64,000 nucleotides of DNA from Mesodorylaimus sp. YZB2_4 (lineage: Eukaryota; Nematoda; Enoplea; Dorylaimida; Dorylaimidae). The stretch lies in assembly GCA_030248295.1 (NCBI GenBank), contig JASANH010000072.1:372001-436000 (forward strand), read 5' to 3'. A model generated the notes under the pieces. The model was not told the origin of the DNA. It saw only the letters and a list, made by a program, of their open reading frames with translations, and did not search any database. Position 1 is the stretch's first letter, and every line of letters starts with the position of its first letter. Positions 2,664 through 50,499 of this stretch are shown piece by piece. The position numbers and the translations under genes are program-made.

Positions 2664-5600
2664 ATGATGCAGCTTCGAGGCAACAAAAAAAGACTACTGC
2701 TTATCATCGGTATTGCAGTGCTTTTACTTGGCGACACTTGCGAAGCTTGTAAGTTGATCTTGAACCTTCTTGTATCAAAGAAAACTAGGACAGAGACATA
2801 TGTACAGCAAGCAATGTGGTGTGACGGCTATTTGAATCATACAAGTAAAATGACCTTTCGTGGAGTATAATTTAAAAGTGACGCAAGCTCTGTTCTGTCT
2901 TCAAGAAGCAAGCGTGACAGCGTCTCCTACGACGGTTCTGATCCTGTAGGTCTTAGTCGCAGTTTCAATTGCTCTCTTTGCCTCGCACCCATCAAAAAAT
3001 TTTGGCAGGTGCTACACCTATTAGAAGAAAGTTATTGAAGAGAAATAGCAGGTGGGCCAACCGATCTTATGTTCCATTTCTCTCCCGGGCATCTTTCTTT
3101 GGCCTGCCTTAATCGCCGACTCTCAACTTTTTAGATCTTAAACTATCAACGACGAGATGCACAACTCCGACATCAACAACACCTTCGCGTCTAACTTTTA
3201 CATCAACGTGCAAGACTACAACTACTACTACAAGTATTTTTGAAACAACAGAACTTTCATCTCAGCAGACCGATTTAACTGCTTCATCCATCTCAGCATC
3301 AAGTGCTGCTGGCTCAACCAGGAGCTCTTCTGATGGTCCAACTACATCTAATGCATCTTCGCCAAGTACCCGATTTACATCTGTTCCAATAACTACCACA
3401 TCAACAAAGACGATCACTCCCCAGCTACACATCAGTACTACCACATCTACTGGGTCAGTGCGTCGAACGTTTATGACAAAGTGCAAGGCACCTCCTACCA
3501 CAACTATAGTGAAAACAACGGAACTTTCAATTCAGCAGACTAATCCAACTGCTTCATACGTTTCAACATCAAGTGCTGCTGGCTCAATCAGGAGCTCCTT
3601 TGTTAGCCCCACTGCATCAAATGCATCTTCGTCAAGTACCGCCTTTATATCTGTTCCAATAACTACTACATCAACAAAGACGATCACTCCCCAGCTACAC
3701 ATCAATACTACCACATCTACTGGGTTAGTGCGTCGAACGTTCACGACAAAGTGCAAGACACCTCCTACCACAACTATTGTGAAAACAACGGAACTTTCAT
3801 CTCAGCAGACTAATTCAACTGTTTCATACGTTACAACATCAAGTGCTGCTGGCTCAACCAGAAGCTACTTTGTTAGCACCACCACATCAAATGCATCTTC
3901 TTCAAGTGCTGTGTCTGTATCTTTCCTGACAACTAGCACATCGACCAAGACCGCTGGGCCACAATTAATCGCCACTTCTACCACAAAAACTCCCAACAAA
4001 ACCCCCGTTAGCACAATTTCATCAACTTCTGTAACTGGGGCTTTAACAGCGGCAACCCCAAGCAGCACGATTTCGTCCAGTAGCATCGCAGTAATCCCAG
4101 TCGCCTTTAGCTCCATTGCGTCCGCTACAACTCTCAGAGCCCCAGCAACTGTGACCAGAAGCCCTGGCAATGCGACTCCATCTGGAACTACCACTGCCAA
4201 TGTCCAAGCAAACGTCACTCGAATCAACATCATCGCGACTTCCTTCTGTCGGAACCCCGCAACATTGCAAGCTGCTTTATCAACCAAACCGGCTTTGCCT
4301 AATTCTGCAACTTCTATGACAAGCTTACAAGCGACGAACACTCCTATATCCACCTTTCTCAGCGTCAGCTCGTCAACAAAACTCCTTGCGCCAGCCACAG
4401 TACTGAACGAGTCGCCATCCTCCGCTTCTACATCAACTCCAATCACTACCAGCATAAAGAAAACTACTTCAAGCACGACTTCTTTTACAAAGGCAGCGAC
4501 TAGCAAGTCAACTACTGAAAGCTCATCAACTTTGACAGCTGCACAGACATTGAAAACATCTAGTTCGTCTCTCCGTAGTGTAACTAATGCAACAGCTTCT
4601 TCAGTTTCCACGGCCGCTACGTCAAAACAAACAATTCAGACGCCTTCATCAAAAGTGCCAGGAGAAACCAGCAGTACTTCGATTCCTCTGCCGATTTCAT
4701 TCTTGACAGTATGTTCTACACCCATCACTAGCACAACCTCTGCAACGGCTCTGTCCAAAACGACAAATACAGATACAACCTCAAAGCTGATCTCAAAAGA
4801 GAAGTCTTCGATTTTAAATGAGGCCACAACCCCCTCATTTCCTATCGAGACTACACTCTCAATAACCGCACTGAATGAATTTATGACTGAACATCTAGTT
4901 GGAAAGAAGACCACAGAGGACGGGACTTCTATTCCATCTTCCACATATCTACCTGCAACATCCCCCGCCGTCAGAGTGACTCCTGCCCTTCTGACTGCGA
5001 CTCGTTTGCCGACTCCATTCCTGACGACATCGCCAGCTCCCACCACTAGCACAACACCAACGTCTTCATACAAAACAACAAAGACGAGCGCAAGGGTGAA
5101 AACAAGACCGCCAACCAAGGGGCCTGCCAGCTCTGCCGTAGCCACCACGAGAGAATCAACCGAAAGGACGAGTATCATGACTACATTCGCTTCAACAACC
5201 ATTACATCGAAACGTGGGGTTATAAGAATTCGAACTCCTTCACCGCCGCCTCTAATCGTAGACACAGCCAGCAATACTTTTGTGCATCTTTTGCAAACTG
5301 GAATCACGACGACTTCTCTCCTTTCTGAACCAACAGTCGCGAGCACAGGTACTGACACAACCACAAGAGTACCACCAATAATGTCAACCGTATGGGCTGA
5401 TGGAACCACGCACCCTGATAAGGCTGGATTGACAACAACGAGGAGCACAGCTGATCCAAAAACAACTACGTCCAAACGCGGGGTGTTGAGATCTCGAACT
5501 CCTCCACCGTCATTGACAGGCGCAGGCAGCAGCTCTTCCACGCGATTTTTGCAAGCTGGAATTACGATGGCTCCTCTCCTTTCTGAAAGAACTGAGGCGA

Positions 5601-8600
5601 GCACAAGCAGTGACACAACCGCAACAGTGCCAGCAACAATTTCAACCAAAGGGGCTGATGAAACCACACAGGCTGATGAAGCTGAATTAATTACAACGAA
5701 GAGCATTGTTGATCCAAAAACAACTGCATCAAAACGCGGAGCATGGAGAACTCGAACTCCTTCACCAACGCCAATAGATCCGAGCAAGAATACTTTCACG
5801 GATCTTTTGTCCAATCAATTCATGACGACTTCTTCTCCCGTTGCAGCCACGAGCCATGCGAAAGTTTTATTTTTTTCCACCAAGTCAACGATCCAGTCTT
5901 CGACAGCAGATAAGACCACAATCGAATCGTCCACTATCGGATCCGCGCCTTTGGGAGTCGCGTCGAGAAAAATAGTGACCGAAGAGCCAGTGGGAGCTAC
6001 ATCTTCAGCGAAAGATATCTCTACTCTTCCTTTCCTATACCAACTAACAGCAACAACTCCTCTTAGCCTGACATCTAGAAAGAAAGAAAGCATAACTAGT
6101 GTTGCAACCACAACAAAACTAAGCGCTAGCTTGGCAGCGTCGACAAAAACAACTGCAAGCCTCACACTCGCGGTCGAAACCATAGGAGTGTCTGTATCAA
6201 TAGAAAGCAACACCCCAGCCTTTCTCACCACAATTGCGAGTGACGCAACTTTATCGGCATTGACTTCCAGCCCTCCCTCATCGTCCTTCTTGACAAAAAC
6301 ACAAATCAACCAAGATCTTAAAACAGAAAGCACGTTGTTCGGGTCATCTGAGCAAAGCAGCACTCCAGATACCAAAACCAAAAAACCCATTTCCGCTTCT
6401 CCAACAACAAGCAGCATCACTCAGTCAACCACGAGTGAGCTCGAGCCCTCCAGTGCCGAAGATTCAGAGTTAGAAAGAACATCGAGGGCAACTTCAACAC
6501 TACTGTCTCCTGTCCACCATTCAACTTACAGTGCGCATTCGAATGGCTCATCTACTAGTCTTCTAGAGAGTCAAAGTATGCCAGCCTCTGTCCCCATATT
6601 CAGCCCTACCTCCTCTATTCAAAGCATGATAGCGTCATCCGCTGATCGACAAGCTACCACTCAAACCGCCGTGGGGGCTGACTCCACGAGGCCGTCTAAA
6701 ACGCCCACTAAAATTGTGCCGACTGCTTTGAGGGTTTCTACCGCAGCACCTACTATCGCGACAACTTCTAGTTTCACCATTTCTGAGCAGGTGACCAGCA
6801 GTCGTCGGAAAGTGATGAAAAAACGAACAGCAAAGTCGTTCACTGTCACACCGACTGTTGCTGAAACTCCAAGAGATGAAAGTGAGCCGAACGCAGCAAC
6901 TCTAGACTACACCACGAGTCTGATCACTGTAACAATGCCTGAAACATCTGCGGGCATGGCTGAATCGAAAATCAAAGAGTTTGGCGCAACTGCTGCTTTT
7001 GAGAGTCAAAATGTAAGCGATGAGGAAGTTCCAGAATCAGACGAGCCCACAAGCAATGATTTCACACCTCTAAAAGCAGCTACTTTTTCGGCCGAAGTAT
7101 CAAGATTAGTCCGGAAACAAGAAAAGTCAATTGGCCTCCGATCTGTCACCACGATCTCACTTCCGATAGAAACTTCTGGCAGTGTTCAAGATTACCGCGC
7201 GACGAAAAAAGATGTAATAGCCACCGAAAAATTGAGCGATCACGATTTTGATACACTGACAACAGTAGCGCACGTGCGCACTCTTTCAGAAGTTGAAAAC
7301 CATGAGACCAGACTGACCAGCGATAGCGAAAGCGAGAAAGAACAAATTAGCATTAAATCGTCGTCAACGAAGCCTGATACCGCCTCGAGTAATCAAAGCG
7401 ACACGAAAGATCACGCCGCTACTGCACAACTCTTCTCCTTTGACGTCAGAACTGCATTGGAGAGCTCGCAAGAGCCCACAGATACCGTGGGCAAAACATC
7501 TGGAGCCAGCAGCCCATCGTCAGAAACCTGGGCTCAAACATCAAAAAGATTCCCCAATTTGCTGTCAACCTCGCCAAAGTACTCCTTCATGTCTTCTATT
7601 TCCACCGCAACGCTGGGCAGGCTTGATTTATCTGAAAGCCCCTCTAATGCTGGGCTTTTCAAACGTTCAAGCCCGGCAAGAGGCACAACGCCATTTACCA
7701 CAAAATCCAATAACCTGTGGTCAACAGCAGCTCCAAAGGCTCCTAATGCGATCAGTAGTACAAAGCTAGGGTCACGAGCTCGGGCGACAACGACACCAGG
7801 TACTGTATCTGCTTGTTATAGGAAGAAGCTGTCGATGAGTTCAATCACCAAGACTCTTTCTTGCACAGATGTCTGCCTGTCACTGGAATGGGGCCCGTGG
7901 ACACATTGCAGCATGACCTGTGGATCAGGCGTCAGGACCAGAACCCGAAATCGACGTTCTACACAGAATGCAACTGTCAAGGACTGTCCGACTAAATCAC
8001 ACACAAAGGCCTGCGATATTCCTCCATGCGTAAGAAGTGACTTTGATGTTCATACACACTGAATGGAATTGCCTTTTACAGACCCCAATGACTGAAATCG
8101 AGCAGATGGCCACTGAAGTGATGATGAATGCGGGTTGCACTTGGATTATTACCGGTTTAGGGTGCTCCATTCTGGCGTTTATAGCATTCAGGTAAGTGCC
8201 ATGCAGGATTTAACGAGATTCACAGAGACTCGATGCTCCCAAATTTATTTGCCTTTTGGCTGCCACAATTTAAACTTTTTGACAAATTTTGTGCTTTTCA
8301 AATGACATCTGTATTGCAGATCGACCTACTACCTGCAAGTTATGCACGCCAACGAAGACATCAGTATGCTAGCCGCACATCTGCTGATTCTCTTTTTCGC
8401 CATGAGAGATGATTCAAAGTTCAGCCAAGTATGCCCGCTCTAATAGGCTCTGTGTTTATTCGCTGAGACACTGTCTTTCCTAGACTGTCTGCAAAATGGC
8501 CTCGCTGGGTCTGCAGTATTTCTTCACAGTCTGTTACACGTTCAAAGCCCTGGAGGCACTGCACATTTTCACCGTTTTGACGAATGTGGTGGTGGGCAAT

Positions 8601-9384
8601 AACGTGCTGATCAGTCTGTCAGCGGCATTGGTCTTGGGTTGGGGTATGTTAAAGAAGCTGTTCATTGTGCCAGTAACTTCAATCACCCCATTTAGGGTTG
8701 CCGGCGATCCTGACAGCCATCACGGGCGCCACGTTGTTCGACAGCTTGATGTCTGATTATTCGTAAGGGGTGCCTGCCTTGGTTGCATTTACAGGAAACA
8801 GGTCAGTCCCGTTTAGGTGTTGGATCAACATCGGCAACACATCAGCCCTCATGCTGTCAGCAGCTCCCTTATGCTCCCTCGCATGGGGCGCCCTGATAGT
8901 GTTAGAGGCGACGGGAAATTGGAATGAGTGGAACAAATCGGATTTGATCAATTCTTGCAAGTAAGATAGCTTCTCATTTTTTCTTGTCAGACACGGGAGC
9001 TCTGGGTTACAGGGTGGCCCGAATTGGATTGGTGTCCGTCCTCTCGGCGCAGTTCGCCTCTTGGTTCATGACTTTTTTGGGAATTTATTACCAGCACATT
9101 GCATATTTCACATGTGTTTTTGGTATCAACGCAGCACTTGGAATATTTATCTTCATTTATCATTTGCTTGCCAATCAGAAGGTACAGTGCATCCATTTTA
9201 TAATCTTCGACTGCATTGCACAGACTGAAAATAGGTTCAATACTTCACCCTCTCCCCATACCCTGCAGCTTGCAGGCTTTCATAGGACACACACATTCTA
9301 ATGACAAAAACTTTTTAGGTCAGGGCCGTGATTGCAAGGATTTACCGCGTTTGTTTTCCGAGGAACGAAATTGCGATGCAGTGA
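2664..9384 (+). CDS. Receptor copy A: mucin-like, TSP1, adhesion-GPCR-type 7TM protein without GAIN domain
   Basis: Proposed coding exons: 2664-2748, 3135-7799, 7869-8029, 8082-8191, 8320-8428, 8484-8643, 8696-8762, 8817-8960, 9013-9181 and 9319-9384 (TGA). All joins have GT-AG ends and matching phases, giving about 1911 residues. Residues 1-28 are a signal peptide. Residues 29-1583 are Ser/Thr/Pro-rich and mucin-like, presumably heavily O-glycosylated. Residues about 1583-1636 form one TSP1 domain with six Cys, WGPW and CSMTCGSG. Residues 1637-1911 are seven membrane helices of adhesion/secretin type: ITGLGCSI in TM1, a Cys before TM3 (TVCKMASLGLQYF), LGWGLPAI in TM4, the ECL2 Cys in CWINIG, and GIFIFIYHLLANQKVR in TM7. 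Only 19 residues separate TSP1 from TM1, so there is no GAIN/GPS cleavage module. The cytoplasmic tail is about 20 residues. Ligand and G protein are unknown. The long reverse-strand ORFs across the mucin exon are compositional shadows. Confidence 0.88.
3194..3990 (+). repeat. Tandem coding repeat, three units of about 273 bases, in the copy A mucin
   Basis: Three units start at 3194, 3467 and 3737 (spacings 273 and 270, both multiples of three). Each encodes about 90 residues with TF(T/M)(S/T)KCK near the start, then TTEL(S)xQQT, SSAAGS(T/I)RS and STKT. The unit carries one Cys. Its near-identity at DNA level indicates recent duplication inside the exon. Copy B has no matching array. Confidence 0.85.
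5204..5990 (+). repeat. Second tandem coding repeat in the copy A mucin, with basic SKRG..R.RTP motif
   Basis: Units begin at about 5204, 5468 and 5726 (spacing 264 and 258). Each opens with a strongly basic segment, TSKRGVIRIRTPSPPP, TSKRGVLRSRTPPPS or ASKRGAWRTRTPSPTP, followed by about 70 Thr/Ser-rich residues. The third unit diverges after the basic motif. The units are more diverged than the upstream 273-base array. Confidence 0.75.
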
Positions 9385-10119
9385 AAGCGGATAAAGGATG
9401 AACATGTACCCGATTTTGTGAGCATGGCAGTGGTAATAGGAATGTCACCTTTAATTATATTACAAAAAAGTGACATAAAATTCTTTCTTGAACAAATTTT
9501 AGAATAAAATTGCACTTCCTACATCATGAGGCGAAACCCTGATGTCTGCAGTAGTGACGCTGTCTTTGACCCTTAACCTTTATTGTTGTGTCATTTTCCA
9601 GTCAAGCCAGTTGTTGCAATCACGTGCAAACGTATTCTCAAAAAGCTACTTCAGGTATTTTTTAATAACTCGAGAAAAGAATTTGTGACGAAGCGTCTGC
9701 GAGTATATTCAACTTTGCCGCCAGTTTTGTGTTTGTGCATTTGCCAGTTTCTAGCGCTCTTATTCAGGCAGCGCATGTATCTGGGATGGACCAAAGGTGA
9801 TCAGCGAACAGAATCGGAAATCTAACACGCGTGCAGGTTTTGTTCCACACTGGTTTTCCATTTGTGACCTTGCCTTGCACCCTAGAAAGAAATACCTTGC
9901 GCAGATGTGCCTTTGTGATCTCATTGTTTTGGATTTTGTAATATGAATGAAGTATGTATATGGCACTTTATTTGATCATGAAAATTATGTGACTAGATCT
10001 TGTATCCTTGTGCTGAATTTATGATTTTAACAACTTTTTTAATCCCTAAATTAGGTGGGCCGCTGCAGCGTCTGCACATACAGAATGTGAGATTCCAGCC
10101 AGCCACAGGGCCTGCAGCC
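9385..10119. other. 3' flank of receptor copy A, no gene recognised
   Basis: This stretch holds the 3' untranslated region of copy A. AATAAA-like signals are weak (ATAAAAT near 9475 and AATAAAAT near 9503). I considered a short exon-like segment after TTTTCCAG at 9587-9602 but it does not continue the receptor frame. Confidence 0.4.
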
Positions 10120-14702: not shown

Positions 14703-14874
14703 GAGGTTCGAGCCGTCATTAAATTTCTGACAAAACTTGGCAAAAATGCGACTGAGGTGTAAACCGAATTACGCAAAGTTTATGGTGACTCAACTCCACC
14801 ATATCGTACCATTGCTTGGTGGGTGGCCGAATCCCATCGAGGAGGAGAAAGTTTTGAAGATGATGACAGGACTA
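14703..14874 (+). pseudogene. Mariner-family transposase fragment (N-terminal HTH region)
   Basis: The frame beginning at 14703 reads EVRAVIKFLTKLGKNATEV, then a TAA, then TELRKVYGDSTPPYRTIAWW and VAESHRGGESFEDDDRT. This matches the mariner/HTH_48 DNA-binding region (.VYG..AP...TI..W...F..G...EDD.R.GRP). The in-frame stop and the loss of similarity after the final RT mark it as a dead relic. No DDD catalytic domain or terminal inverted repeats are visible nearby. Confidence 0.75.
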
Positions 14875-30920: not shown

Positions 30921-32841
30921 GGCTATCACAGAGGCTGGAGCTGAGGCAGAGGCTGGCGATCGTCGAGCACAGTTGGAAATTGGAGTGGATGACATGTGGT
31001 GAAGCTGTCAGCGATTTTAAAGACATTTAGAGCAATAATATTTTGCCGAACTTTTGTCTATGCAGAGATAAGTATGTAGTTTTATAAACATTCCTGCTTG
31101 GTAAGCTTTTTGACTGACAATGGCCATTCTATGAAATATTTTTTTTTATTCAGGAGCAACACCCAGAGAGAAGAGATTGCGGCATTACTGCGGTATCAGA
31201 GATGAGCACAAAGTTATTTGCGCTGCTACAGCAAAAATGTTTTTGCTCTGTGAAGCAGTTCTGTGCTCTGTGAAGACTTTTCTGTATGTCAAGGAGATTC
31301 AACAAGTGCTCAAAATATTGCGCTGTAAGTACATCTTTAAAGACTCTCCCAGTTAAATTCGGCTTCAGTAGTAGTTACCAAAAAGCATGTATTTTGGCAT
31401 AATATTTCGAGAAGTAGTTCCCAATTACAGCTGCAAATTCTCAAGTCTATCTTCCCAGTTTGTAGCGCTGGAAATTGCTCATTCAGATGATGCTTCTGAT
31501 GCATCAAAAACTGACAAAAGTGTGCTTGTTTTGCTATATTTGTCGACCTTTGCGTCCAAAATGGAAATGTCTTTTGTTTGTCCGCTTACGAGTTGAACTG
31601 CTCGTCCAGTCATTCTACAGTACTGCACTGGCTGGTTGATGAAGCTGGTGTTGCTTTTTGAAAAATACATACATGTGAATGAACAAAATCTTGCCTGTTG
31701 TGCTTAATTTATCCCGGCACTTCATTGACAAGCCGCTGTTGCACCACTTAAAAAATTGCAGTTGCAAATTTATACTCTGACAGACTTCATGCAGGGCTCC
31801 ATCGGTCCATCATCCGACTGACGATGGTACCGAAAATCACTTTGACGCCTAACTTAAGTAAGATCGATTGGAGATACGAATGGGATCGTTCAAGCATGGC
31901 CATAAACGGATGAGAGTCACAGCACTCGCCAGGCTCAGTTTAGGAGTGCAATCAAGTCTCGCTGGTCAGCAACTTTTCGTGATCACCAGCCACCTCCTTC
32001 TTTAGGCAGGAAGATGAACATCTTATGCACATCGCCTAAGAAAACAATGCCGCTGTCTGTTTCCCTGTCAGCGACTCAAGTTTTCTAGAAAATGCCGTTC
32101 CATAAACTTTAAGAATTCTCTTCTTACTTGTAGGCTTCCTTCGGGTTTCTGAAATACGACCTCTAAGAGGCGCAATCTTACATTAGTTTCAGGCTCCCCA
32201 CAGTTGCTACCTGCCGCTCATGGTGCCCCAAAGTCAGGTGTAAAAAGGAGTTTACACAAGCTTGTGCTTCATGTAGACACGAGTTCAGATCAGCTGATCA
32301 TAAAAGACCCAGGTCTATAAAAACACGTTTTTTAAGAGCCGCGCTTAAATTGTTCTGCTGTGAAGCTTTAATTACAGGATTTTACAAGGCAGAAATTACC
32401 TCATTTGAGTTTTATAGATCTCGCGGTCAGCCATCCTCGCCACCAGCAACAAGTCCAAGAGGAAAGCACTGTTTATCCAACTTATCTTTAAACTTCGAAG
32501 AGAGCAAAAGGCAAAGCTAAGCACCAGTACAATGGGCCATTGTACCTGAAGCTAGCCTTCAAACAGCAATAATCCTCTCACATAAACAGCTATATTGTTC
32601 ATTAAGTACGCGTACCTCAAAGTCAGATCCGGACGCCCACGGAATAAACAGGCTATTCCATCCATACCATGCCCACAGCAGGTTTCGAATTGCACAGTCC
32701 TGTTGTACATCGATTTGTTCCCCGTATGTCCACAGTTTATGGAGATTACGTGGGTTTGTTTGGTCAAGACTCGCCCCTGGTGAATAAAACGTCGAAAATA
32801 GGTGGCTTTCTTCATTCTTGGTCCAGTCGATAACAGAAACC
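30921..32841. other. No gene recognised between PI-PLC and SLC46-like genes
   Basis: These divergent genes must both have promoters here. No TATA box, RNA gene or repeat boundary is evident. A 129-codon reverse-strand ORF (32948-32559) overlaps the 5' end of the transporter and is treated as doubtful. Confidence 0.4.
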
Positions 32842-34398
32842 ATGTCTATTGTAGCCTTGCTTACTCGATTTAGCCACTTTTTCTTGTCCATCATAAGAAA
32901 TATCTCTGCTGAGCCAGGTGTTGTCATTAATTCCCTAGCTGGCTCCATTCACACGACAGCCAATCAAATCGGTTTGTACCACGTCGCCTGTGAAAAGATT
33001 ATTGCCAAAAATGAAATGACTTATTCCACTTATAACAGCACTATCGATTGCTGGGGATCGAATTTCACAGGCTGGAAAGATTTGGAAATCCAAATGCAAG
33101 CGTCAGCAGCAAACTGGAACATGATTTTTTCGATTGCCTACACAGTGCCCAGTGTTTTCGCCGACATATTCTTGGGCGCTTATAGTGATGAGAAAGGAAG
33201 GAAATATCCAATTTTGTGGGGTCTTTTCGGATGTCTTATATCCAAATTACCTTGGGTATTCGTTTTCTATTGGCCAGTTTCCGCGCCACTTTACACTTTG
33301 GTCATCGGATATGCATTTGGTGGATTGACAGGTTTCTTCGCTGTCATTTCCATTTCTTCCGCTGCTTATATCGCAGATACAGTCACTGACAGTCGTATGC
33401 TTACCATACGCATGACCGTCCTCTCATTGGCCTCGGGTATTTCCAATATAATTGGTCCATTAATCGCAAAAACCCTGCTTGCAGTTAATCAATACGCTGG
33501 AGCTGTCATTCTGGCACTGGCCATTGAGCTAGTGTCCATCTATTCGGCCATTGCGCTACTAAAACAAGTGCCACCAAAACAAATGCGTAAAATTGCTCAA
33601 ATGAAAGCTTCTGGGGCCACGAAAGAGCAAATACGTCTTCAACTGAAAAAAGATTCTGAGTCAATTCAAAATGATCAATCATTTACAAATACAATTAAAA
33701 TGGCACTTGCTAAGGTCGTTGAGTTGACCAAAAGCGTTTGCTTTACTTTTACCAAAAGACGACCGAGTCATGGCAGAGCATATTTACTTATTTTGACTGC
33801 AGCAGTTTTCTTAAGTTCAACAGCAGAAAATATTACGACAGGCATGATAATGACGTTATTCGTGCAAAAATCACCTTTCTTTTGGAATCAAAATTTAATA
33901 TCGTATTTCAAGTCAGTAGCCTATGCAGTATGTCTGATTGGCTCAACCTTGGGCATATTTTTGTTCAAAAAACGTTTACAATTATCGGATACTCTGCTAA
34001 TTGTGATTTCATTAAGTTCAACAATTTTAAAGTGCTTACTTATGTCCTTGAGTAATATGGATTGGCTCTTATATGTGTCAGCGGTGGCTGGTTTTTTGGC
34101 CCCTCTGGTTCAACCGTGCGCTCAATCGTTTATTGCAAAAACTGTAGAAGCGGATGAAGTCGGCAAGGCATATACGGCTTTTAGTTTGGCAACGAATTTA
34201 GCTATGTTCGCGAACAATTTAATTTTTACTGGAATTTATCAAGCGACAGTGACATATTTTGCTGGATTTGTATTCTTGTTTTGCGCTTTCCTTCTTGGAT
34301 GCGTATTATGCATGACAATTTGGATTCATGTCGATCATAATAATTATTATCGCTTATGCTGGCCTAGAAATAAAATTTGCGTGAATGAAAAATTTTAA
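32842..34398 (+). CDS. SLC46-like (proton-coupled folate transporter type) MFS transporter
   Basis: A single uninterrupted frame encodes about 518 residues with roughly 12 membrane helices. Members of SLC46 move folates and related compounds with protons across plasma or lysosomal membranes. Family marks are EPGVVINSLAG near the start, a first luminal/extracellular loop with N-glycosylation sites, the QASAANWN and P.VFADIFLGAYSDEKGRKYP block (MFS motif A between TM2 and TM3), SAAYIADTV, and R.TVLSLASGISNIIGPLIA in TM4-TM5. A basic central loop (KQVPPKQMRKIAQMK) separates the halves. The chosen ATG at 32842 is the first in frame; an upstream coding exon cannot be excluded because family members usually begin close to the EPGVV block. 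The lack of introns in a 1.5 kb frame is unlike the receptors and enzymes nearby and suggests a retrocopy. No disabling change is seen. Confidence 0.85.
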   Translation: MSIVALLTRFSHFFLSIIRNISAEPGVVINSLAGSIHTTANQIGLYHVACEKIIAKNEMTYSTYNSTIDCWGSNFTGWKDLEIQMQASAANWNMIFSIAYTVPSVFADIFLGAYSDEKGRKYPILWGLFGCLISKLPWVFVFYWPVSAPLYTLVIGYAFGGLTGFFAVISISSAAYIADTVTDSRMLTIRMTVLSLASGISNIIGPLIAKTLLAVNQYAGAVILALAIELVSIYSAIALLKQVPPKQMRKIAQMKASGATKEQIRLQLKKDSESIQNDQSFTNTIKMALAKVVELTKSVCFTFTKRRPSHGRAYLLILTAAVFLSSTAENITTGMIMTLFVQKSPFFWNQNLISYFKSVAYAVCLIGSTLGIFLFKKRLQLSDTLLIVISLSSTILKCLLMSLSNMDWLLYVSAVAGFLAPLVQPCAQSFIAKTVEADEVGKAYTAFSLATNLAMFANNLIFTGIYQATVTYFAGFVFLFCAFLLGCVLCMTIWIHVDHNNYYRLCWPRNKICVNEKF

Positions 34399-38994: not shown

Positions 38995-41900
38995 TCATGC
39001 ATTGTTCTTTGGTACGCAGAGATTGATTGTCTTCGCGAACAATCCTCTAACCTAAAAGAGCAATCTTGGAAACCATTCAAATAGTAAGAGCTCAAGCAAG
39101 CGAATGACCTGAACCGCTTTCAACTTATACTGACCAGAACAGACAAATATTATACCTTCTGATTTGCAAGCAAATGGTGCATGAAGATGTAAACACCAAG
39201 AGCTGTGTTAATCCCGAATGCAATCGTGAAAAATGCGATAAGCTGATAATAAATTGCCAGAAACGTCAGAAACCACGAGGCCAACTGCGCCGAAAAGACG
39301 ATGGCCAATCCAGCTCGTGCCACCCTGAAACAATCGCTCGCATGTGAGGAAGAGTGACAACGGGACGACAATCCGAGTCTCACTTGCACGAATTGATTAT
39401 ATCCGATTTATTCCACTCGTTCCAATGACCAGCTGCCTCTAAAAGAATAATGGTGCCCCATGCCAGCGAGAAAATCGGAAGTGCTGACATCATCGCAGCC
39501 GATGTGTTGCCCATGTTGACCCAACACCTAAATGAAAGTGACATGATCAATGTGTGACAGATCTGTAGGCACGAAACCCCTCACGAATATTCGGACATCA
39601 GGTTATCGAACAATGCGACCCCCGTAATGGCCGTCACGATGGCCGGCAGACCTGAAACAAGTGGCATGAAATCTCAGCACAGCAATCAGCCCGCTCGCAT
39701 ACCCCAACCAACGACCATAGCCACATTCAAATTGATCAACGCATCGTTTCCCATGACCACATTTGTCAATACAGTGAAAATGTGCAGTGCCTCCAGGGCC
39801 TTGAACGTGTAACAGACTGTGAAAAAGTACTGCAGACCCAGCGAGGCCATTTTGCAGACATTCTGGAAAGAAACAACGCAGCAGGTCAAAAATGATATAT
39901 GATTGGTGGCTTATCGTGTGCATCACATACTTGGCTAAACTTTGAATCATCCCTCATTGCGAAGAAAAGAACGAGTAGATGCGCGACTAACAGACTGATG
40001 TCCTCGTTGGCGTGGACAACTTGCAGGTAGTAGGTAGATCTGGAAAAAGCAAGCTACAGTAGTTGCCTGCGCGTCCTCGAGGTTACACAATTATGAGGTC
40101 GACAGTGTGCAATGTCGGTTCCTTGCGCTACGTCAGTGGATATTTTGGTGTGGGGGCAAGGTCCAATCAGGATAGGATATGACGGAACCACGCTCGTAAT
40201 TCGAGTCAGTAGAGGGCACTTTGCATAATGCGGTAGGACCTGATTTAGGTGTGCACAAGCATGTTGTTCGTGAGGCAAGGGGATCCAACCCCCCTATGGT
40301 TAGTATGTAAGTGTGATTTGCATATCGCCCAACTTGCTGGGCGACCTGGGAATTTCTAGGGTGTGTAAGATCAGGTCGTTTGTGTTAGGTGGAAACTGGT
40401 TGCACCCTATACCCATGTGTATTAGAAATGTATATAAGGAACCCATTCTGCCATGCTCAGTCAGTAGTAGAGTTGCAGTCACTCGCTGGTACGTCGTAGT
40501 CATTCGTGATCTTCGTATTTCTTGCTTGTACGTCGGCTCGTATTCAACGATTTCAGTTGGTTGTCAGTGGTTTTCTTTTGGGCAATGTTCCGTGTGCCGA
40601 GTGGACGGCGATTCCGCCCATATCCAGCCCGATCTTTGGGTAAGCAGTCTTGTTGAGTGTAACCGTTTACTGTGTCCATATTAGGCTAGGCCAGTAAACT
40701 ACGTTACAAGTGTCTACTTCCCTATTGTCACGATTAAGCAAACTCCACAGGGCGAAAAGAGTGAGCTGCACTTTCTGAAACCCGTCGCAGAAGCATTTCT
40801 TGACATCTAAATGGTGAATCACGGCCCAATGTGAGGATGCGATATCTCTACATGCTCCGCGCTGTTCCATTTCAATTTTCAGGCTACTTGCGCACCAGTA
40901 TGCACGCAGCGTTTCGCTTTTTTTGGAGCAGTTGTATGATTCCTCCGCTAAAAGGTAGTTTTTCCCACCAAACACATGCAATCTTTACTTTTCTAACCAT
41001 GGGATCGATGGGAAGACTGGCTGCATTTGAGAACCGCCTGAGATATCGATGAATTTTGACCCCAGTATTATAGACCATATTCAATACCTGAAGACCCGAC
41101 TAGGTTCGGGGGAGATTAATCAGAAACGTCCTGGAATGTGAACTATACTCGTACTATATACATAGTCGTCTTTGAGTGTGACAGGAAAAAGCATGGCAAG
41201 CTACGGATTGCCTGCGGCATCTGTTACAGCTGCTGCAGAAATTTGTCAGGTTTTTATCATACACAGTAATCGCACCAGTCTGACTCCGTTTGAATACGCT
41301 TTTTTTTTGTGTAGTAATAGGTGCCTCAGTGTACTCTATTAGCATAGAACATCTAGTGTGCACCGAGATGCGCAGACTATTTGTCTTCCTCCCTGGTCAG
41401 GGCCGAGCAAGCCCAGAGGCCGAGCTAACTGGTTTTCCTAACATGCGAGGGATTGATAACACTAGTTCTTGGGCCCGAGCATCGCCTATATAAAGGCCCT
41501 GCCCCCTGCCTGGTGAGATCAGTCAGTTCAGTCCAGATCAGTTCGATTAGACGACTTCTCGACGACCCGACGTTTGTAGCCGGCTCTCTTGGTCCTGCGT
41601 GAGTCCCCTACTGGTGCGGCGTGGTGGATACTCGTTGTGCTGGTGGGCTGCGTGGCTTGATTCGAACCTCAACACGACAGCACAGTTGGTTCAGGGTTGC
41701 TGCCTGAGAATCTGACTGTTTCACTTGCCATCTTTGCCGCTCTCTTGGCGCTTACCTGAACATTATGAATCCAAAAATGGAGCAGCCTAGCCCAATAAAA
41801 ATCCAAATACAACCCACATTCATCATTACTTTAGTCGCCTCTTGTTCGATTGCACTCATTGGAGACTGCAAGAAAAACCAAGTCAAAGTTTAGCGCGCAA

Positions 41901-44900
41901 GAGCTCTTCAAACTTGAGCTATACGCACGCATGGTGGAATATTGCAAGCCTCCTTGTGCGATTCGGCTGGGCAGTCCTTGATTGTGGCGTTCTCTGTGGG
42001 GAGTCGATTCCTAGTTCTGCTCCTGAGGGCTGATCCACAGGTCACGCTGCAAGGTGTCCATGCATCCCACTCCAATGATTGGCAGACATCTAAAGCAGGG
42101 AGGCAAGAGTTAGTGGGTGGCTCTCTCTGCACCAAGCCCATACCTGGTGTCGTTGTGGTCCTATTGTCAGCCCGCTGCCCCAGCGTCGAGCCTTTAAAGG
42201 GGCTAGAAGCCTCTGTGGCCACTGAGAACAAGAAGGAATTGGTGGGTAACTTAGTTGTGCTCTTTGTGGAGTGCCGACTACTCGAGGACCAATTGTTTGA
42301 GGAGCTTCTGGATGAACTTGATGATGCATTGGCACTGGAAATTTGGGAGTTTATTGACGTTCGTGTTAACGTTTCCTGGCTGAGAGGCTTCCAGTTTTCA
42401 GATGTTTTTGAAACACTAGTAACGGATGTGTCACCAGTTTGTGATGTGCTGCTGACGTACTGTTTGCTATTGATCTCTCCTGGCACTCGAGAAGTTAATC
42501 TGGTATCGACGACGTTTGAAGATTTGAGTCTTCCAATAGTGCCGAGGTCATCCCTAGCTCCTTGCTGCCCCATGTAAAGATCGGCGTTCGTAGACGATAA
42601 CTGATTTTGGTCTTTCTTGTTGCTATTGTCATTCGTTGGAGTGGACTTCGGGGTTTGAAACTCCGATGTAGTTCGCAATTCCGCTCCTGCCGTTAAGATT
42701 TTATTTGCGTTGTCACTAAATACTGCTGTACTCTCTGCAGGAGACTCAGAAACACTGCTCGCTGCTGCTTTGGGGGGTGAGATTACAGTTGCAAGCTGCA
42801 ATGCAGTTAGCTTTTTGAGCTCTGAGACTGATCTTGTCATTTCGCCAACGAACGTCGTCGCTCTTGTTGTCAGAGGTTTGATATCAGTTAGGCTAGACTC
42901 GGATGCTGTTTCTTCACCCTCACTTTCCCGTTCAAGAGGATCTGTTGCACGGAATTCAAAAATTGTGGAGCTTGGAGTTTCTGACATTGTCTTGACTGGC
43001 GTTGTGATTAGACTCATACTGGTCGTGACCGTACCGGAAATTGGGGCTGTGGATTCCGTCTCGCCTTCTGTCTCATCCTTTAAGTCAACAATGGATTGTG
43101 GAACTGTGCTGTACTCTGGGCTGGTTAGTGGCTGATTATTTTTAATGTTGACTGTCTCTTTAAATGGCGCTATGAAAACTGGAGGGGTCTTCTGTTCAGC
43201 GGGAAACTTGGATGTTCGTTTTCTAAAGATTTCTTGATTAGTGCTAGCTGAAAACAGCGAAGGATTAGTGAAGATTTCGTGCGCTGAAGCTATCGGCGTG
43301 ATGAGTGTTGCTGCTGCTGTCATGGAGGGTGTAGCAGTAGTCGGTTTTATTGCAGTTACTGTTGCTGTTGCGGGCGTGCTGCGACAATAAGTACTGGTAG
43401 TAGCTCCTTCAGCAGTCGGTGCGGAAGCGGTAGGAGTAGTGGGCAATGCCTCTATGGTTTGGGAAGCATAGATCACGCTGGAAACGGAAAGGGGAGCAGT
43501 TGCAGAGGTGCTTACACTCGCTGCATAATTTTTGGTAACTGCGCTGGAGGAAATTGCGTTAAAAGTTCCAGGAGTGTCAAGAGGGTTTGTTTTAAGTAAA
43601 CTGGTTTGAGGGGCTGCCGAGAACAAGCTTATTGAGATTTCAGGCGTATTTGATTGCAACAGCGTTAAATCTTTTGTTATCGGCATGGTTTTTTCTTGAG
43701 TTTGAGTAGTGTCCAAAGATTGAGTGAAAGGAATTTCTGCCGCACTGGTGGTCATGATGGTCATCCGAGGGTTTGTTTCAAGTGAGATGGTTTGAGGGGC
43801 TGCCGAGAACGAGCTTGTTGAAATTTTAGACGTATCTGATTGCATGGTTGACTCTGTTGAAGTGCTCGTGAGAGCTGTCGTAAGATCGTTACTGATTTCT
43901 GTTACTGCCGAAGACCCTGGAGGGTTTAAAGTAGATGTCAGCAGATCGGCAGGAAAAATTGTCGTGCGCTCAGTTGTTGTGTCACCTGCAGTTGCGACTG
44001 AGAAGGTCGGAATGATGCTTTCTATTAATGCAGACAGATCCGCGCTGGTTTCTGAAACTGCTGATGTCGATCTCCCTGTGCTCTGACTAGAGGTTGGCTT
44101 GGAGATATCCATTTTTGCAAAAGTGGACCAATATTGACCCGATGCGGCAGATGTTTCAGCCGCTGTCGATATGACTTTTATCGGCGCTTCAGTGGTCCAC
44201 TGTGCGGATGCACTCACTGAAGGTGTAGAGGGAGATTGGATTAGGCGCTCAAAGGGTGTCGGAAACTGACTTTTCGACTTGGCTGATGTAAAGTAGGAGA
44301 TCTCATGTGTTGTGCTTGAACTAATTGTGGGTTCAGATGTGGTGTCAACAACGGGCGAGGTTGTCGTCACAGCAGTCGGCAAAATGCTGCCGGTTGAGTC
44401 TGGTGGCTTCGAAGAAGGAGTCCGAATTCTCCTTACTACACGGTTTGTTGTTGTAGTCTTTCGTGCAGCTGTTGTGGTCATTATTTCCGTGAGTGCGGTT
44501 AGCGTTTTCTCAGTACTCGTGGTCTGAAAACGCTCAGTTTCTAATTTATCAGCTAGGATCTCCATGGTTGTCAGCTGTGTCGATGTTGCAAGCTTAGTTG
44601 AGGTAGTTGACATTACACCGGCTGGCTGGGCGGTCGTGTTGGGCTTCAGGGAATCAGTTGATATTGCAGTCGTCGCCTGCCTGCTAGAGGGGCCTGAAGT
44701 TGTGGATGAAGTCATCCTTCGATTAGATGATATGGTTGTGGATGAAGTTTTTTCGGAGGTAGAGGATGGCGCAATGGTTGGCGAAAGCTGCGTTGTCGAT
44801 TTGGTACTGCTGCTGGCTGAAGTTGGTGGAGATATAAACGTAGCGGGGGACGGCACCTTGGTTGAGACAGCTGACGATGCTGTAAATTGCAGAGAAGAGA

Positions 44901-47900
44901 ATGTCGTGCTAGTAGAGCTTTTGGTGGCTGTTGTTTGGGGACTGGTTATGGGAGGGACTAGAATTGTACTGGTGGGGCCTTGTGTTGCAGTTGATTGAGT
45001 GTTGCTACTAAATGTCAGTGTGCTGCTAAGACTTTCAGCGGCTGTTTTCAGATGTCTGGTTGTAGTGGAGCTTTGCTGAGTTGTAGTTGGGAAGCTGGTT
45101 TGGCTAGTAGTGGTAATGGATAATTGTGCGTTGGCGAAGCTGTAGGTGGCAAGCGATGGGGGGTAAGTTCCAGGGGAGGATGAAGTAGTTATTGCTGAGC
45201 TTCTAGGTGCTGCTGCATGGGGGCTTGTTGAGCTAGATGTGGCCATGAGTGTCGGGCTTTGGCCGGCACTTGATGATGCGATTTTGATGAGGGGTGAGGA
45301 AATGTAAGTGGGGCGTTGAGTGGCACTTCCAGAAGAAAAAATGAACTGAAAGAAAAGGATCATGGTCGAGAAGTTTTCAGATCTATTTGCTGCAGTGAAA
45401 GTGGATGCAGCTTGTGTGCTGCTCTTAGTCGATACAGGCGAAGTCCTGGAGCTTGGAGACGCACTAGGGCTGATAGAGGTGCTCTCTGTTAATCTCGACA
45501 CTGTCGGAGAAGTTGTAGTTATCTGTTCAGTTTCAGTCGATCTTGTGGTCTGTTTCGAGGTTGTTGGGGGTCCATTGCTCGACGTAGTCGTAGCGACTGA
45601 TGTGGCGATCGGGAGGACTGCAATGTGGGCTCGAGGCGTCGTTGATGGCGATGTCCGTGTGCTAGCAGTCCAAGGGGTTGACAATGTATGAGTCGAGGAA
45701 GGAGATGGGCTTATTGAAACTGCAGTCGGAGCTGGAGACCAAATACTTAAGGAGGTAAATTCAAAGATAGATGTGGATTTCTTGCTGGTTGAGCCTGTTG
45801 TTGATAACGAGGCGCTGGGCGCAGCTGAAGCCGAAGCAGAAGAGCTAGTTGCCGAAATTGTGGTTGCTTGGCTGGGAGTTGATGTCGAGATTGAATTCGT
45901 TGACAGTGCGATCGTTTGTGTTGAGCTGCCAGTTGATGTGCTGGTGGTCGTTGTAGTGGTTGATATGGTCGTAGTGTTGGGGTATGTTGTCCCATTGCAT
46001 GCCCCCAGAGATAGAGTAGATGGACAATTAATCATTTTTGAATCGCAGCCTGCAGATAAGAAAACGCGGTCATGCGTTATAAAATCGCTCTTTTATATTT
46101 TTTACTCGTACACTTACCTAATTCGCAAATCATTGTAAACTTGTATTTACGTGTATCATCGCGAAAGTTGTATTTGAGAGAGTAAAAGTCGCACGGTTGA
46201 GATGGATTAACGCCTAGATAAAACGGGGGTTGATCTGTGATGCTCAAGAAAGTTGTGTTCACTGGAATAGACTCCGAGGCGACTCGACATTGAGCAGGTT
46301 TATCTCCATCAATTGTCCAGTTATAATAAGAGAGCTGGTCATTGGAGGCATTGGTAACCAGTGCTCCCATCAACACTGGTTTGCCCTCGATGCTGGTTCC
46401 GACCATCTTCTGTTGCAGATTTTCCATGACGCTGAGATAATCAGCGGTGCTTTTAAAAACAGCAAGTCTGGAGTATCCATAACTGATAGATGGACATTCC
46501 ATTTCTTCACCATCCTCTATGTTCTTCAAACCGACGACATAGCAAATATTATTGTGAATATATGTGACTGCATTTTTTTCTTTAGCGCACGCCGCTGTGA
46601 CATTACCTTAATTAAACAACAGAAAGCAAATCGCAGAGATGGTCAAACACAAAGAGAATCATTATTGGGTGGGGGAGGGGGGTGGCAACTGCAGCTATAG
46701 GGAAATTCATAGTGGTAGAGCTCTTCCTCAGTCACATGATTGTTATTCGATTATCTTCCAGCATTCTAGCAGTCGGTGAAAAAGAAAAAACTGCTCATAA
46801 GAGTTTTTTAAAATATTTTGGACAAGCTTCAACATATTTTAAAGAGGTATACTACATATACTACATCTTTACTAGGTATACTACATCTTTTTTCTGACCT
46901 CTTACAGGCAATATAAATATGTTTTTGCTATCCTTTTTCGTTTCGGCCATCATTTCAGCACACAGGACAAAGTGAAGGGCTAACGTGCATGACAGGGCTA
47001 AGACAGCGCCTGGTTTTTAAAGAAACTTCGACACAGAGGGCATTCAAGAAGTTCACGGAATGATGTTCGCATCGCGGAAGTGTAAAATTTTTTTGACCTG
47101 TCCTGGTCGGTCCATGGGAGGGTCGATTTTTGGCCACCTTCCCGCGGGAGAGGGGGCTTGTCAGCTGACCGTATCTTGCCATCAACAAGGGTCAACCGGG
47201 ATGCATGCCGGGCAAGGGCGCGTGTAAGTCGCTACCCCGCGATGTCGGTGGACCATGGGGTACCCATGGGGTAACCATACCCAGCCCGGGCCTCCCGCGC
47301 AATAAGTCCTCTCCCCATTTATCGACGCCGGAGGGATGAAGGGTGAGTCGCCCACCACCATGTGTGCAACGCGCAGAGAGAACTTCACCAAGTTTTTAGA
47401 CGGCCAGAGTTGAACTCGGGGCCTACTGGTTTCCAGCTCTGCCAAGCAAACTGTGACACGCCTTTCACCGCTACACCACCGCGGAAGTGTAAAGTTTTTA
47501 TCAGGGGCCGTATTCCAGAAGCGTTTTCCTGTTTTCCACTGTTTCCTCCGCATACCCTATTCAGCATTCCGCTGCTGTTTTCCTTCAGCGGTATTTTCCA
47601 GCGGCTGAGTTTCACAAAATCTTTGCAGAACTTTCCTTGGAGAAAAGTTCCTGCGAGTTTGCCACCTCGCAGGAAAACTTTAGTGTCGGGCACCTAAAAT
47701 CTTTCCTGCGAGTTTTCAATGTTTAACACATAGTCGTGCTGCTAAATGTCTCGTTGAACTCGTAACAAATATTTAACTCAAGTCCAGCAATTTTTAAACC
47801 GTATCATTCGACAATGGTACGTGACCAAAACGTATCACTCGCTATCGTTACAAGTGTAGGCAATCCCTTGTCTTCTTCTTACCCGACCTCACGAAAGCTC

Positions 47901-50499
47901 GTCGTCAATGCTCTCTAAGAGTTGAGCACAGCTGCTTACTGCGCTTTGATTTTATGCAAGCAATAACCATATCAATTCTCGATGGTGATTAGCCTAGCAT
48001 TTCACAGCTACGTACTCTATCGAAAAGTTCAGCTGTCTCCGATCATTTTGCCAAAAAATCAGTCATCAGAGTTCCTGAGCGCTTATGCTCAAGATGTGTG
48101 CGAGGTTGGGTTGAAAATTTTGTGAGGTTGGGCGGTTGGCTCTCGAAACCCTAAGCAATTCGATCAAAAGAGCCCGTCTTCAACGTGAAGTAGCTTGCCC
48201 ATCATTGTGATTCACTATAATGTACATCACAGTTGAGTCATCCAACAACTCCACATTTTTCGCAAAGCTCCTCGGTATCGGGAGGTTACCAGCGGGGTCA
48301 TTTCATCCTCGGCCTTCCATGCCGAAAATCTTCCAGATCACCATTCAAAGAGCCTCTTTGGAATGAGAGTCAACGGAAGTATATCAAGCTCACAAGAAAA
48401 TGAGAGTGAGATCGAGACACACGACAAGTGGAAGCGCATTTTGATCTTCATTCTGAGTCTCGTTAGCACAAAACTGGTTCATGGTATGTTGGCCACACGG
48501 TGCTTCGACTGCATGCCCGACTTTGTTGGAGAAAAAACACAGATGAGCATCGTGATCGCTGATGACAACAAAAATGATCAACTGACTTTTTCTGGGCTTA
48601 GGCGCCGAGAATGACGCAGCTCCATTTCATCCCATATCATGAGTGAGTGCCTGAACATGTAGTAACTTGGTTGAAACCGTAACATTCACTGAGCTAATTC
48701 CTTCCAGCTCACTGGAAGTTTCCTTTGAGGTCACTGTGCTTCTGGAATAGGGTCACCTCACCGGGCGATTTTCCTTTAGGCTCACAGGAAAGTTCCATCG
48801 AGCTCCAAGAGATTTTACCCTGCGAGCTTGAAGGAAAGTTTCAGTGACCTTGAAGGAAAATTTTCCTTTCACCTCGAGGTTTCCTTCGAGTTTCTGGAAT
48901 ACGGCCTCAGAGCAACTTTTCTCGTTATGCAAAATCCCTCGCAGGTGGCCCGCGCATTCGATAAACTAGTTCAGGCGCAGCGGCCCCTGTATCACAGCGG
49001 CTCGGCGTTTATATTGCTGTATTGCTTGAGGGCGAGTGGCTGGCTCCGTCGCGGGTTCGATCCCCGGTGATGGCGGTGACAGAACGGACCCTCGCTGACC
49101 TTGCAGTGGGTAAGTCACCCGGTATCATCGAGGTGCTGTGAGTGGAGTGACGTACGCCAAACGAGGAGACAGCCAACTCGAACACTGAGGGTTCACAGCC
49201 CGCCCGCCATCGTCCGAGGAACTATTAGAAAGGAGCATGATTGATGTCTTACTATTTTTTCAGCTATCCAGTACTCATTATTTAGTCGCAGAGGCCCGCG
49301 AGAAATTTTTGGGCCAAAGCTCGTTTTGCCTACTGTACGAGTACAGCCGGCCAGCAATCAAACTTTTCCAGCAAGGCTACGCTTGGCCCAGCACACACAG
49401 TAGCGTTCCTTTGTAAGTTCCCTCTAGGAGGACCCACTCGTATCTTCGAGAGGCCAAGACTATGTATATCATTGGCTGGGCATTTGGCCTGATTCAAATC
49501 GGAGTTAGCACACGGCGCCAACAGGAATGATAGAGAAAAGTTGCGAAAAGATTGGATAATACAGTGATACAGTACTTACAAGGATCGAATGCGCAGACGC
49601 CGGGTTTCGGGCATTTTGACTGAGGTGGTAAGCTAGTTTCCCCGCTTTGTGCCGCAAGCGTCGTCATGGTCTGTCCAGGCCCTGGGCATGTCGCTGGTGG
49701 GGAGTACATATCGCAACCTAAAGCACTTATTGCTTCGTTTTGCTGTTTATTACACTTTGGATCTAGTCTCTTACCAAATTCGCAAAGCATCAGATTTTTC
49801 TCGCTGCAGTTGCGTCCCATGAGTGTGGCGGGGCTTCTTCGCACGTAAACTGCTAGACAGGATGGCATCGTGCTCGTCGCTACTGCTTGAACTGCCACGC
49901 TCACTGGCTGGTTTGACACTTGCGATGCCATTTCGCATGCCGTGCTCATCCAACAGTAATCGGATATTTTGTGACCGAATGAAACAGATCCAGCGCCCAA
50001 CCAGATCGGTAAATCAAGACTAATATTGGCCTGATGCCCGTTTGTAACTGCTATGTTAGCAGCTAGTATTTTCAATTTGCTGATAACTTGCGAGTAGTCG
50101 CTGAAGTTATCGAAAACAGCTGCTCGACCGTAGTTCATTTTTGGAATAAATAGACCGGCGAGAGCATTGCACTTTTCGTAGCTTTTCTCCCAACTATATT
50201 CATATTTGTAAATTCCATAGCATTTATTGTTATAAAGATAAGTGACCATATTGCTCGAGCTATATCGTGCGCATGAGCTCATGCTACCTGCAAAGCATAT
50301 TTTGGTGCACATGATAGCCAGATAAGAAAAAGAAATACATACACAACAGCGATCCATTACTGCCCGCGCCCGTTCCTGGACAAATATTGCTCGAAGAAGA
50401 TGACGGGCAAGTTGCAGGCAATAGGCATGACCCTGCGACTAATTGTATTGGTATCAGATAAACGAGGAAAGCGGGTAGTATTGATCGATATAGACGCAT
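38995..50499 (-). CDS. Receptor copy B: CTLD-CTLD-mucin-TSP1, adhesion-GPCR-type 7TM protein without GAIN domain
   Basis: Proposed exons on the reverse strand: 50499-50343, 50287-49580, 46594-46118, 46049-42144, 42089-41929, 41865-41756, 40039-39931, 39862-39703, 39651-39585, 39527-39384, 39324-39156 and 39051-38995 (TGA), about 2074 residues, with all phases matching. Residues 1-52 hold the signal peptide (MRLYRSILPAFLVYLIPIQL). Residues 53-288 hold CTLD 1 (NNKCYGIYKYEYSWEKSYEKC ... NLMLCEFGK), and 289-447 CTLD 2 (NNICYVVGL ... FTMICELG). No EPN or QPD calcium/sugar motif is visible. Residues 448-1749 are mucin-like, then TSP1 (WDAWTPCSVTCGSA) and seven helices closely matching copy A (VCKMASLGLQYF, LGWG-equivalent VGWGLPAI, CWVNMG, LGVYIFMHHLLANQKVR). 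TSP1 and TM1 are separated by 19 residues, again with no GAIN/GPS. The 3 kb and 1.7 kb introns are filled with SINEs and LTR-like sequence. Confidence 0.88.
40040..41755 (+). mobile_element. Intron of copy B with two LTR-like promoter blocks
   Basis: Copy A has 128 bases at this intron position, so most of these 1716 bases are insertion. Two blocks each have a TATA box followed 25-35 bases later by TCAGTCAGT: TATATAAGG at about 40433 with CTCAGTCAGTAG, and TATATAAAGG at about 41490 with GATCAGTCAGTTC. This arrangement resembles arthropod-type LTR retrotransposon promoters. I could not find clear TG...CA ends or matching target duplications, and no reverse transcriptase or integrase is present, so these may be two solo LTRs. 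Confidence 0.4.
47060..47492 (-). mobile_element. SINE-like element in copy B intron 2
   Basis: Reverse strand: GCGGTGGTGTAGCGGTGAAA (A-box-like), then GAGTTCAACTCTGGCC (B-box-like), then a body with GGTGGGCGACTCACCCTTCA. The head resembles that of the 61846-62262 SINE (GCGGTGGTGCAGCGG). Confidence 0.55.
47506..48906. repeat. Pair of inverted termini GGCCGTATTCCAGAA in copy B intron 2
   Basis: GGCCGTATTCCAGAA (47506-47520) is matched by TTCTGGAATACGGCC (48892-48906). Both ends are followed inward by palindromic AGGAAA/TTTCCT-rich sequence. They are either the two ends of one 1.4 kb element or single ends of two small MITEs of the same family. No coding sequence lies between them. Confidence 0.6.
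48985..49225 (+). mobile_element. SINE copy in copy B intron 2
   Basis: GCGGGTTCGATCCCCGGTGA (B box) is followed by ACCCTCGCTGACCTTGCA, GTAAGTCACCCGGTA and CCATCGTCCGAGGAA, in the same order as the other family members. Confidence 0.72.
49285..49480 (-). mobile_element. SINE 3' fragment, inverted
   Basis: GGGCCAAAGCTCGTTTTGCC, GCCGGCCAGCAATCAAACTT and CCTCTAGGAGGACC match the inverted 3' body of the SINE at 61846-62262. It lies just left of the CTLD 1 exon of copy B. Confidence 0.65.

Follow-up and report, generated by a model that had tools for sequence, protein, structure and literature searches.

Two genes in the dorylaimid nematode Mesodorylaimus sp. YZB2_4, which we call gene A and gene B, probably belong to a family of adhesion-type receptors in which the GAIN domain, the GPS and the Stachel are absent, splicing joins a TSP1 domain directly to a conserved 19-residue linker and TM1, and the uncleaved chain signals. 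Read from the sequence, the predicted domain order is signal peptide, two C-type lectin-like (CTLD-like) domains in gene B and two of its paralogs, mucin stalk, TSP1, linker, 7TM and a short tail. Both genes lie in the window, by which we mean the whole 64,000-nucleotide stretch of DNA that was analyzed (G000:C83:372001-436000), and the genome that was searched for relatives comprises 145,146,385 bases in 1067 contigs.

Domain organization of gene A and gene B

Gene A occupies positions 2664-9384 of the forward strand of the window, where a GT-AG splice model gives nine exons and 1934 amino acids. Exon 1 (2664-2748, ending in phase 1 at a GT-AG intron) looks by eye like a signal peptide, with a basic start followed by a hydrophobic run. 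One exon (3135-8029) encodes both a mucin-like Ser/Thr-rich stalk (3135-7885) and a TSP1 domain (7886-8029), the last Cys codon of which lies at the donor site. The stalk is 1577 amino acids long, is about 40% Ser plus Thr, and includes in-frame tandem repeats of 270 bp (2.5 copies, 3243-3907) and 258 bp (1.9 copies, 5289-5766); gene A thus has the long, Ser/Thr-rich, tandemly repeated region that characterizes mucins. A phase-0 intron of 52 bp (8030-8081) separates TSP1 from an exon (8082-8191) that encodes the 19-residue linker (TPMTEIEQMATEVMMNAGC) and TM1, and TM2-TM7 with a short C-tail are encoded at 8320-8428, 8484-8643, 8696-8762, 8817-8960, 9013-9181 and 9319-9384. Pfam recognizes TSP_1 at 42.1 bits (cut-off 21.6) and 7tm_2 at 49.5 bits (cut-off 20.6). 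At E<=10, the whole of gene A matches just 7tm_2, four TSP1 models and a stray sub-threshold WsaF_C (0.08), with no match to GPS, GAIN, SEA, HRM or the Methuselah ectodomain.

Gene B lies on the reverse strand (50499-38995) and is modeled, again with GT-AG splice sites, as 12 exons and 2077 amino acids. Its first exon (50343..50499) reads by eye as a signal peptide, and its mucin-like stalk (42073..46049; 1319 amino acids, Ser plus Thr about 40%) shares an exon (46049-41929) with the TSP1 domain (41929..42072). A phase-0 intron of 63 bp (41866..41928) precedes the exon for the linker (SPMSAIEQEATKVMMNVGC) and TM1 (41756..41865), and TM2-TM7 with a short C-tail are encoded at 40039-39931, 39862-39703, 39651-39585, 39527-39384, 39324-39156 and 39051-38995. 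The Pfam scores are 36.4 bits for TSP_1 (cut-off 21.6) and 47.9 bits for 7tm_2 (cut-off 20.6), and the mucin-TSP1 exon matches TSP1 models only at E<=10, with no GPS, GAIN or SEA. The splice junctions proposed for both genes in the initial annotation (8029/8082 and 41929/41865) and the 19-residue linker are thus reproduced in these models. From the TSP1 exon onward, the two genes have identical exon end phases of 0,2,0,1,2,2,0.

The genes differ at their N-termini. Gene B carries two domains of about 165 amino acids that look CTLD-like by eye (WLGA, spaced Cys residues and a CEFG ending), encoded by exon 2 (49775..50287) and exon 4 (46118..46606) and separated by a Cys-containing spacer exon (49580..49717); a paralog has a similar stretch between its two CTLD-like exons. 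The N-terminal 456 amino acids of gene B have no Pfam match at E<=1, no Pfam lectin match was obtained for any of seven copies of these domains, and the top rows of a search of their profile against the PDB are weak matches to C-type lectins (convulxin beta at 0.088 and lymphocyte antigen 75 at 0.17). The C-type lectin-like assignment of exons 2 and 4 is tentative. Near gene A, a search at E<=1e-3 detected no counterpart of these domains. The contig also carries, upstream, two paralogs (~348-356k and ~361-368k) that have, in their frames and by eye, the same order of two CTLD-like domains, a Ser/Thr/Pro-rich frame and TSP1-7TM; in a third, L010, the corresponding frame is less rich and is ended by the edge of the piece taken. 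In six comparisons, the CTLD-like domains have dN/dS ratios of 0.24-0.43 and are evolving faster than TSP1, linker and 7TM.

Several other features were noted on this contig. At L011 (C83:359718-360524), a further CTLD-like exon precedes a short Ser/Thr-rich frame and may represent a truncated copy, and long frames that look retroelement-like by eye, with an aspartic-protease-like DTGA stretch, lie between the paralogs at L010 and L012 (C83:342633-346472). Within the window, open frames at 32788-34398 (forward strand) and 21542-22513 (reverse strand) resemble by eye multi-pass transporters of the MFS kind, and frames at 57356-58366 (forward strand) resemble, again by eye, a PAN-like and a trypsin-like serine protease gene.

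A genome-wide family under purifying selection

A genome search with the 7TM of gene A yielded 160 matches, 76 of which were grouped into 46 loci; Pfam detected TSP1 no more than 1.5 kb upstream at 21 of the 46. Spliced alignment covered gene A, gene B and 40 other loci (42 altogether), leaving out loci on, for example, C76 and C260. At 33 of these 42 loci, a phase-0 intron follows the last TSP1 Cys exactly, with [TNSK]-[PV]-[MLI] on its other side; the spliced models lean toward this boundary, since a profile of genes A and B, and later one of the family, guided the aligner. The reading frame is open from TSP1 to TM7, with no stop or frameshift, at 27 of the 33, and the other six are broken, partial or unresolved. 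The nine loci that do not show the junction are L066, which is intact and has TSP1 with a shifted splice; L075, which has a TSP1-like stretch with stops; L067, L070 and L079, where TSP1 was not seen; and the fragment-like L064, L065, L078 and L080. Genes A and B had been described as a pair. The recurrence of their exact junction at 33 of 42 loci exceeds what chance would give and replaces that description with a larger one: by these alignments, both belong to a genome-wide, lineage-expanded family of tens of loci.

Purifying selection acts with similar strength on TSP1, linker and 7TM. Between gene A and gene B, dN/dS is 0.17 in each of the three, and in ten other pairs the values are mostly 0.07-0.34, with a few pairs saturated or unchanged and with an outlier in L059-L060 (0.75 for TSP1); the 7TM of L046-L076 gives 0.30. 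A quick tree was built from 37 rows, omitting L044, L047, L064, L065, L071, L073, L075, L078 and L080 as broken, partial or unresolved models; in it the TSP1-bearing copies group together, though not strongly (SH-aLRT 82), and the rows without TSP1 fall outside that group.

The junction between TSP1 and TM1

The junction intron is 51-72 bp long at 30 of the 33 loci and 232, 233 and 722 bp at the remaining three. Given that these introns are so short (52 bp in gene A and 63 bp in gene B), a GAIN/GPS region does not fit between TSP1 and TM1. An HL[TS]-like or AVL motif occurs in none of the 33 linkers, and the C.C.HxT/S motif is absent from all three long junction introns; three GPS-bearing control loci in the same genome do show these GPS-type motifs. 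A TxFAVLM-like Stachel, or tethered agonist, is likewise seen in none of the 33 linkers and is present in two of those controls, L081 and L082. The Pfam results, the short introns and the lack of GPS motifs all agree with the original proposal that no GAIN/GPS lies at this point and that GPS cleavage, with release of a Stachel, would not take place there. Autoproteolysis is thereby excluded at this site, where TSP1 adjoins TM1 and GPS is missing, unless transcripts differ from the predicted splicing.

The sequence that does occupy this position is highly conserved. The last TSP1 Cys is kept at 33 of 33 loci, the linker Pro at 32 and Met68 at 33, and the linker conforms to the motif xPM[TS]..E....VMMN.GC, in which Pro, Met68, Gly71 and Cys72 are nearly invariant across the 33 loci though TSP1 and 7TM diverge much. 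Similar motifs precede TM1 at two loci without a recognizable TSP1, DPMTPLERKV in L070 (C366:3700-5900) and PLTEFEQKV in L067 (C2:889200-891500). Because the motif is retained in the apparent absence of TSP1, the linker may matter in itself.

The 7TM core and GPS-bearing receptors in the same genome

Pfam finds 7tm_2 in all ten family members scanned. A profile of ten 7TM sequences matches ADGRL3 best in the PDB (4.7e-16), followed by ADGRD1 (1e-15); the 21 top rows are all adhesion GPCRs, and secretin-type receptors appear from 3.2e-5. Cys before TM3, Glu in TM3, W-G-x-P in TM4, CW in ECL2, Trp in TM6 and Gly in TM7 are invariant in the ten-sequence alignment, and all 27 complete copies keep the Cys and Glu of TM3, the Trp of TM6 and the Gly of TM7. 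By sequence comparison, then, the family 7TM is adhesion-type (class B2-derived) and is nearer to adhesion than to secretin receptors, as had been recognized from the letters of genes A and B. The family thus has the 7TM core of class B2 and a long N-terminus with adhesion modules (mucin stalk and TSP1), and it lacks the GAIN domain with GPS before TM1 and the Stachel that also define that class. Assignment to the secretin receptors (class B1) was considered and rejected: gene A has no HRM, and none of 13 HRM matches in the genome is on C83 or C39.

Profile searches of the whole genome place GPS at eight sites, six of which sit 0.2-0.8 kb upstream of a 7tm_2 match and none of which is on C83 or C39; Pfam GAIN matches occur at one place (C58). 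At two of the GPS-bearing loci, L081 and L082, TM1 is preceded by CxCNHLTTFAVLM, and the phase-2 intron at the end of TM1 is shared with the family. In a third, L083, three later intron positions and phases are as in the family, at a low alignment score. These shared intron positions and phases suggest that the family descended from a GPS-bearing adhesion receptor in which the GPS/Stachel stretch was replaced.

Alternative explanations

The same sequences could be read as two genes per locus, one for a secreted mucin-TSP1 protein and the other for a short 7TM receptor whose translation begins with the ATG in the TM1 exon. The unspliced frames do stop soon past the donor (at 8060-8062 in gene A and just after TSP1 in gene B), and an ATG is the third linker codon at 29 of 33 loci. 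However, that codon is TTG at two loci, CTG at one and ATC at one, and the preceding Pro codon is kept in 32 of 33 with silent changes that use all four CCN codons (15 CCA, 10 CCG, 4 CCC and 3 CCT). Donor, acceptor and phase 0 recur at 33 of the 42 loci, a 7TM protein by itself would be without a signal peptide, and the similar purifying selection that TSP1, linker and 7TM show favors a single gene over two. The conserved phase-0 splice, the silent Pro-codon changes and the selection make two genes very unlikely, and we reject that reading; the initial annotation was right to treat mucin-TSP1 and 7TM as one coding unit, for which splice and selection speak on both sides of the junction and in which the ATG is not conserved. 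A secreted form could be made additionally from retained-intron transcripts. We give next to no credence to a GAIN/GPS exon that is present but was missed, either because it is concealed within an intron or because it has diverged too far for Pfam to recognize. GAIN is indeed easily missed by a Pfam search, given one GAIN place in the genome versus eight GPS places, and three family introns reach 232-722 bp. Those three introns nevertheless lack C.C.HxT/S, the other 30 are too short, and GPS, the better detected part, is found in no family locus but beside six other 7tm_2 loci. On intron length and absent GPS motifs, a missed exon is rejected as well.

Two further readings concern what the linker and the 7TM do. 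The linker might be a built-in, uncleaved agonist in place of the Stachel, as its nearly constant Pro, Met68, Gly71 and Cys72 beside divergent TSP1 and 7TM domains, and the like motifs before TM1 in L070 and L067, would allow. The hydrophobic TxFAVLM pattern is missing from every one of the 33 linkers, though, and folding or capping of the TM1 helix could explain the conservation, so that we regard an agonist role as tentative and somewhat doubtful. It is unlikely that these proteins are structural surface mucins or anchors whose 7TM no longer signals. The very long stalk and the short C-tail (~20 residues) would suit an anchor, but selection on the 7TM is at least as strong as that on TSP1 in most pairs, and the Cys pair, the Glu of TM3, the Trp of TM6 and the Gly of TM7 have been kept.

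An intronless branch with EGF modules

Some of the matches are intronless, and six pieces that hold such matches were examined (L084 and L087-L091, on C24, C103, C159, C688, C1 and C130). By eye, these six relatives consist of a lectin-like domain or a repeat/mucin-like stalk, EGF modules and 7TM, with GAIN absent. In the four scanned with Pfam, EGF is above the cut-off in one and below it in the rest; three have a sub-cut-off 7tm_2 match, and the fourth has none. A profile of the intronless 7TM joins that of the TSP1-type 7TM in hhalign (99.7%, 4.1e-25); the alignment of the EGF-type 7TM has no match in the PDB at E<=0.1. The intronless lectin-like domains give sub-cut-off Pfam Lectin_C matches in two of three cases (0.043 and 0.017) and match botrocetin at 0.0086. 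Since hhalign gives a probability of just 3% for a link between them and the gene B CTLD-like domains, lectin-type heads may have been gained separately in the two branches, or one of the labels may be wrong.

Another piece, L085 (C73:253316-254668 plus flanks), holds, by eye, mitochondrial-type COX1 followed by ND4, with a COX1 frame that is open only when TGA is read as Trp, along with a second, partial copy on the opposite strand. The contig numbering exceeds 253 kb, and the piece may result from insertion of mitochondrial DNA into the nuclear genome or from a join made during assembly.

Relation to known receptors

In the EMR/ADGRE receptors, EGF modules and a mucin-like stalk precede an adhesion 7TM, and in the BAI/ADGRB receptors TSP1 repeats do so. 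Both groups retain GAIN between those modules and the 7TM, whereas here TSP1 (or EGF) directly adjoins TM1 with no GAIN between. Methuselah and secretin receptors also combine a class B 7TM, without GAIN, with an ectodomain of their own; unlike here, that ectodomain is of the Methuselah or HRM type, neither of which was found in gene A. Methuselah receptors are mentioned in PMC2396169.

Departures from the GAIN/7TM module are already in print. The module is described as belonging to most, not all, holozoan adhesion receptors in the part of the source available (PMC12716839). ADGRA1 (GPR123) is, in the accessible account, the only human adhesion GPCR without GAIN, and in that respect it resembles the present family; no mucin, TSP1 or lectin is given for it there (PMC8421042). 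Among adhesion receptors of the sponge Amphimedon, GPS is reported absent in 12 of 40, and these share a 7tm_2 core with the nematode family, but the available excerpt describes short N-termini and perhaps incomplete models, in contrast to the long, multi-domain N-terminus here (PMC4302439). In Trichoplax sp. H2, 28 of 36 CTLD receptors are Secretin/Adhesion 7TM GPCRs, one Branchiostoma case is known, and the authors linked the placozoan CTLD receptors to defense or symbiont management, according to the portion available (PMC6321704). Like the present receptors, these are lineage-expanded adhesion-type 7TM proteins with lectin-type ectodomains; unlike them, they are described in that portion with no mention of a mucin stalk, TSP1 or EGF. 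The terms GPS, GAIN, TSP and EGF have no occurrence in the text of PMC6321704, which does not tell the GAIN state of its receptors.

Our literature search, a search outside of which most subscription journals lie, found no paper on a mucin-TSP1-7TM receptor without GAIN, and none that combines CTLD, TSP1, 7tm_2 and GPCR. The suggestion that the receptors may be new therefore holds for their exact layout, as far as that search went, but not for their kind, since GAIN-less and lectin-bearing relatives have been reported in the accessible parts of three sources (PMC6321704, PMC4302439 and PMC8421042).

Proposed working and significance

In the working that we propose, the receptor would remain a single uncleaved chain, its CTLD-like or mucin part would keep a ligand, be it glycan, matrix or microbial, at a distance, a pull or the binding itself would shift TSP1, and TSP1 would use the linker to act on TM1 and on the extracellular pocket. 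Surface display, the ligand, force transfer and G-protein signaling are all presumed in this scheme, as is the sensor or anchor role suggested in the initial annotation. A mucin-like residue extends roughly 0.25 nm, and a stalk of more than 1300 such residues could reach hundreds of nanometers. The tandem arrays and the faster-changing heads suggest, by analogy with what has been proposed for placozoan CTLD-GPCRs, that the heads may recognize variable ligands.

We also put forward, as a speculation that we consider rather unlikely, that a receptor class of this lineage swapped GAIN and Stachel for interchangeable rigid modules (TSP1, or EGF in the intronless branch) on an uncleaved linker that is itself the built-in agonist, such that force or a ligand, acting on lectin-like or mucin rods of hundreds of nanometers, would drive the adhesion-type 7TM with no autoproteolysis involved.

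The usual account of adhesion GPCRs rests on GAIN autoproteolysis and a tethered agonist. A large family that selection maintains and that retains an adhesion-type 7TM without this switch, together with GPS-bearing controls in the same genome, would make it possible to ask to what extent GAIN and Stachel are needed, and whether the core can be activated by just a membrane-proximal module and the linker. Their lectin-like heads and tandem arrays would also make these receptors candidates for a role in recognition, comparable to the placozoan CTLD-GPCRs.
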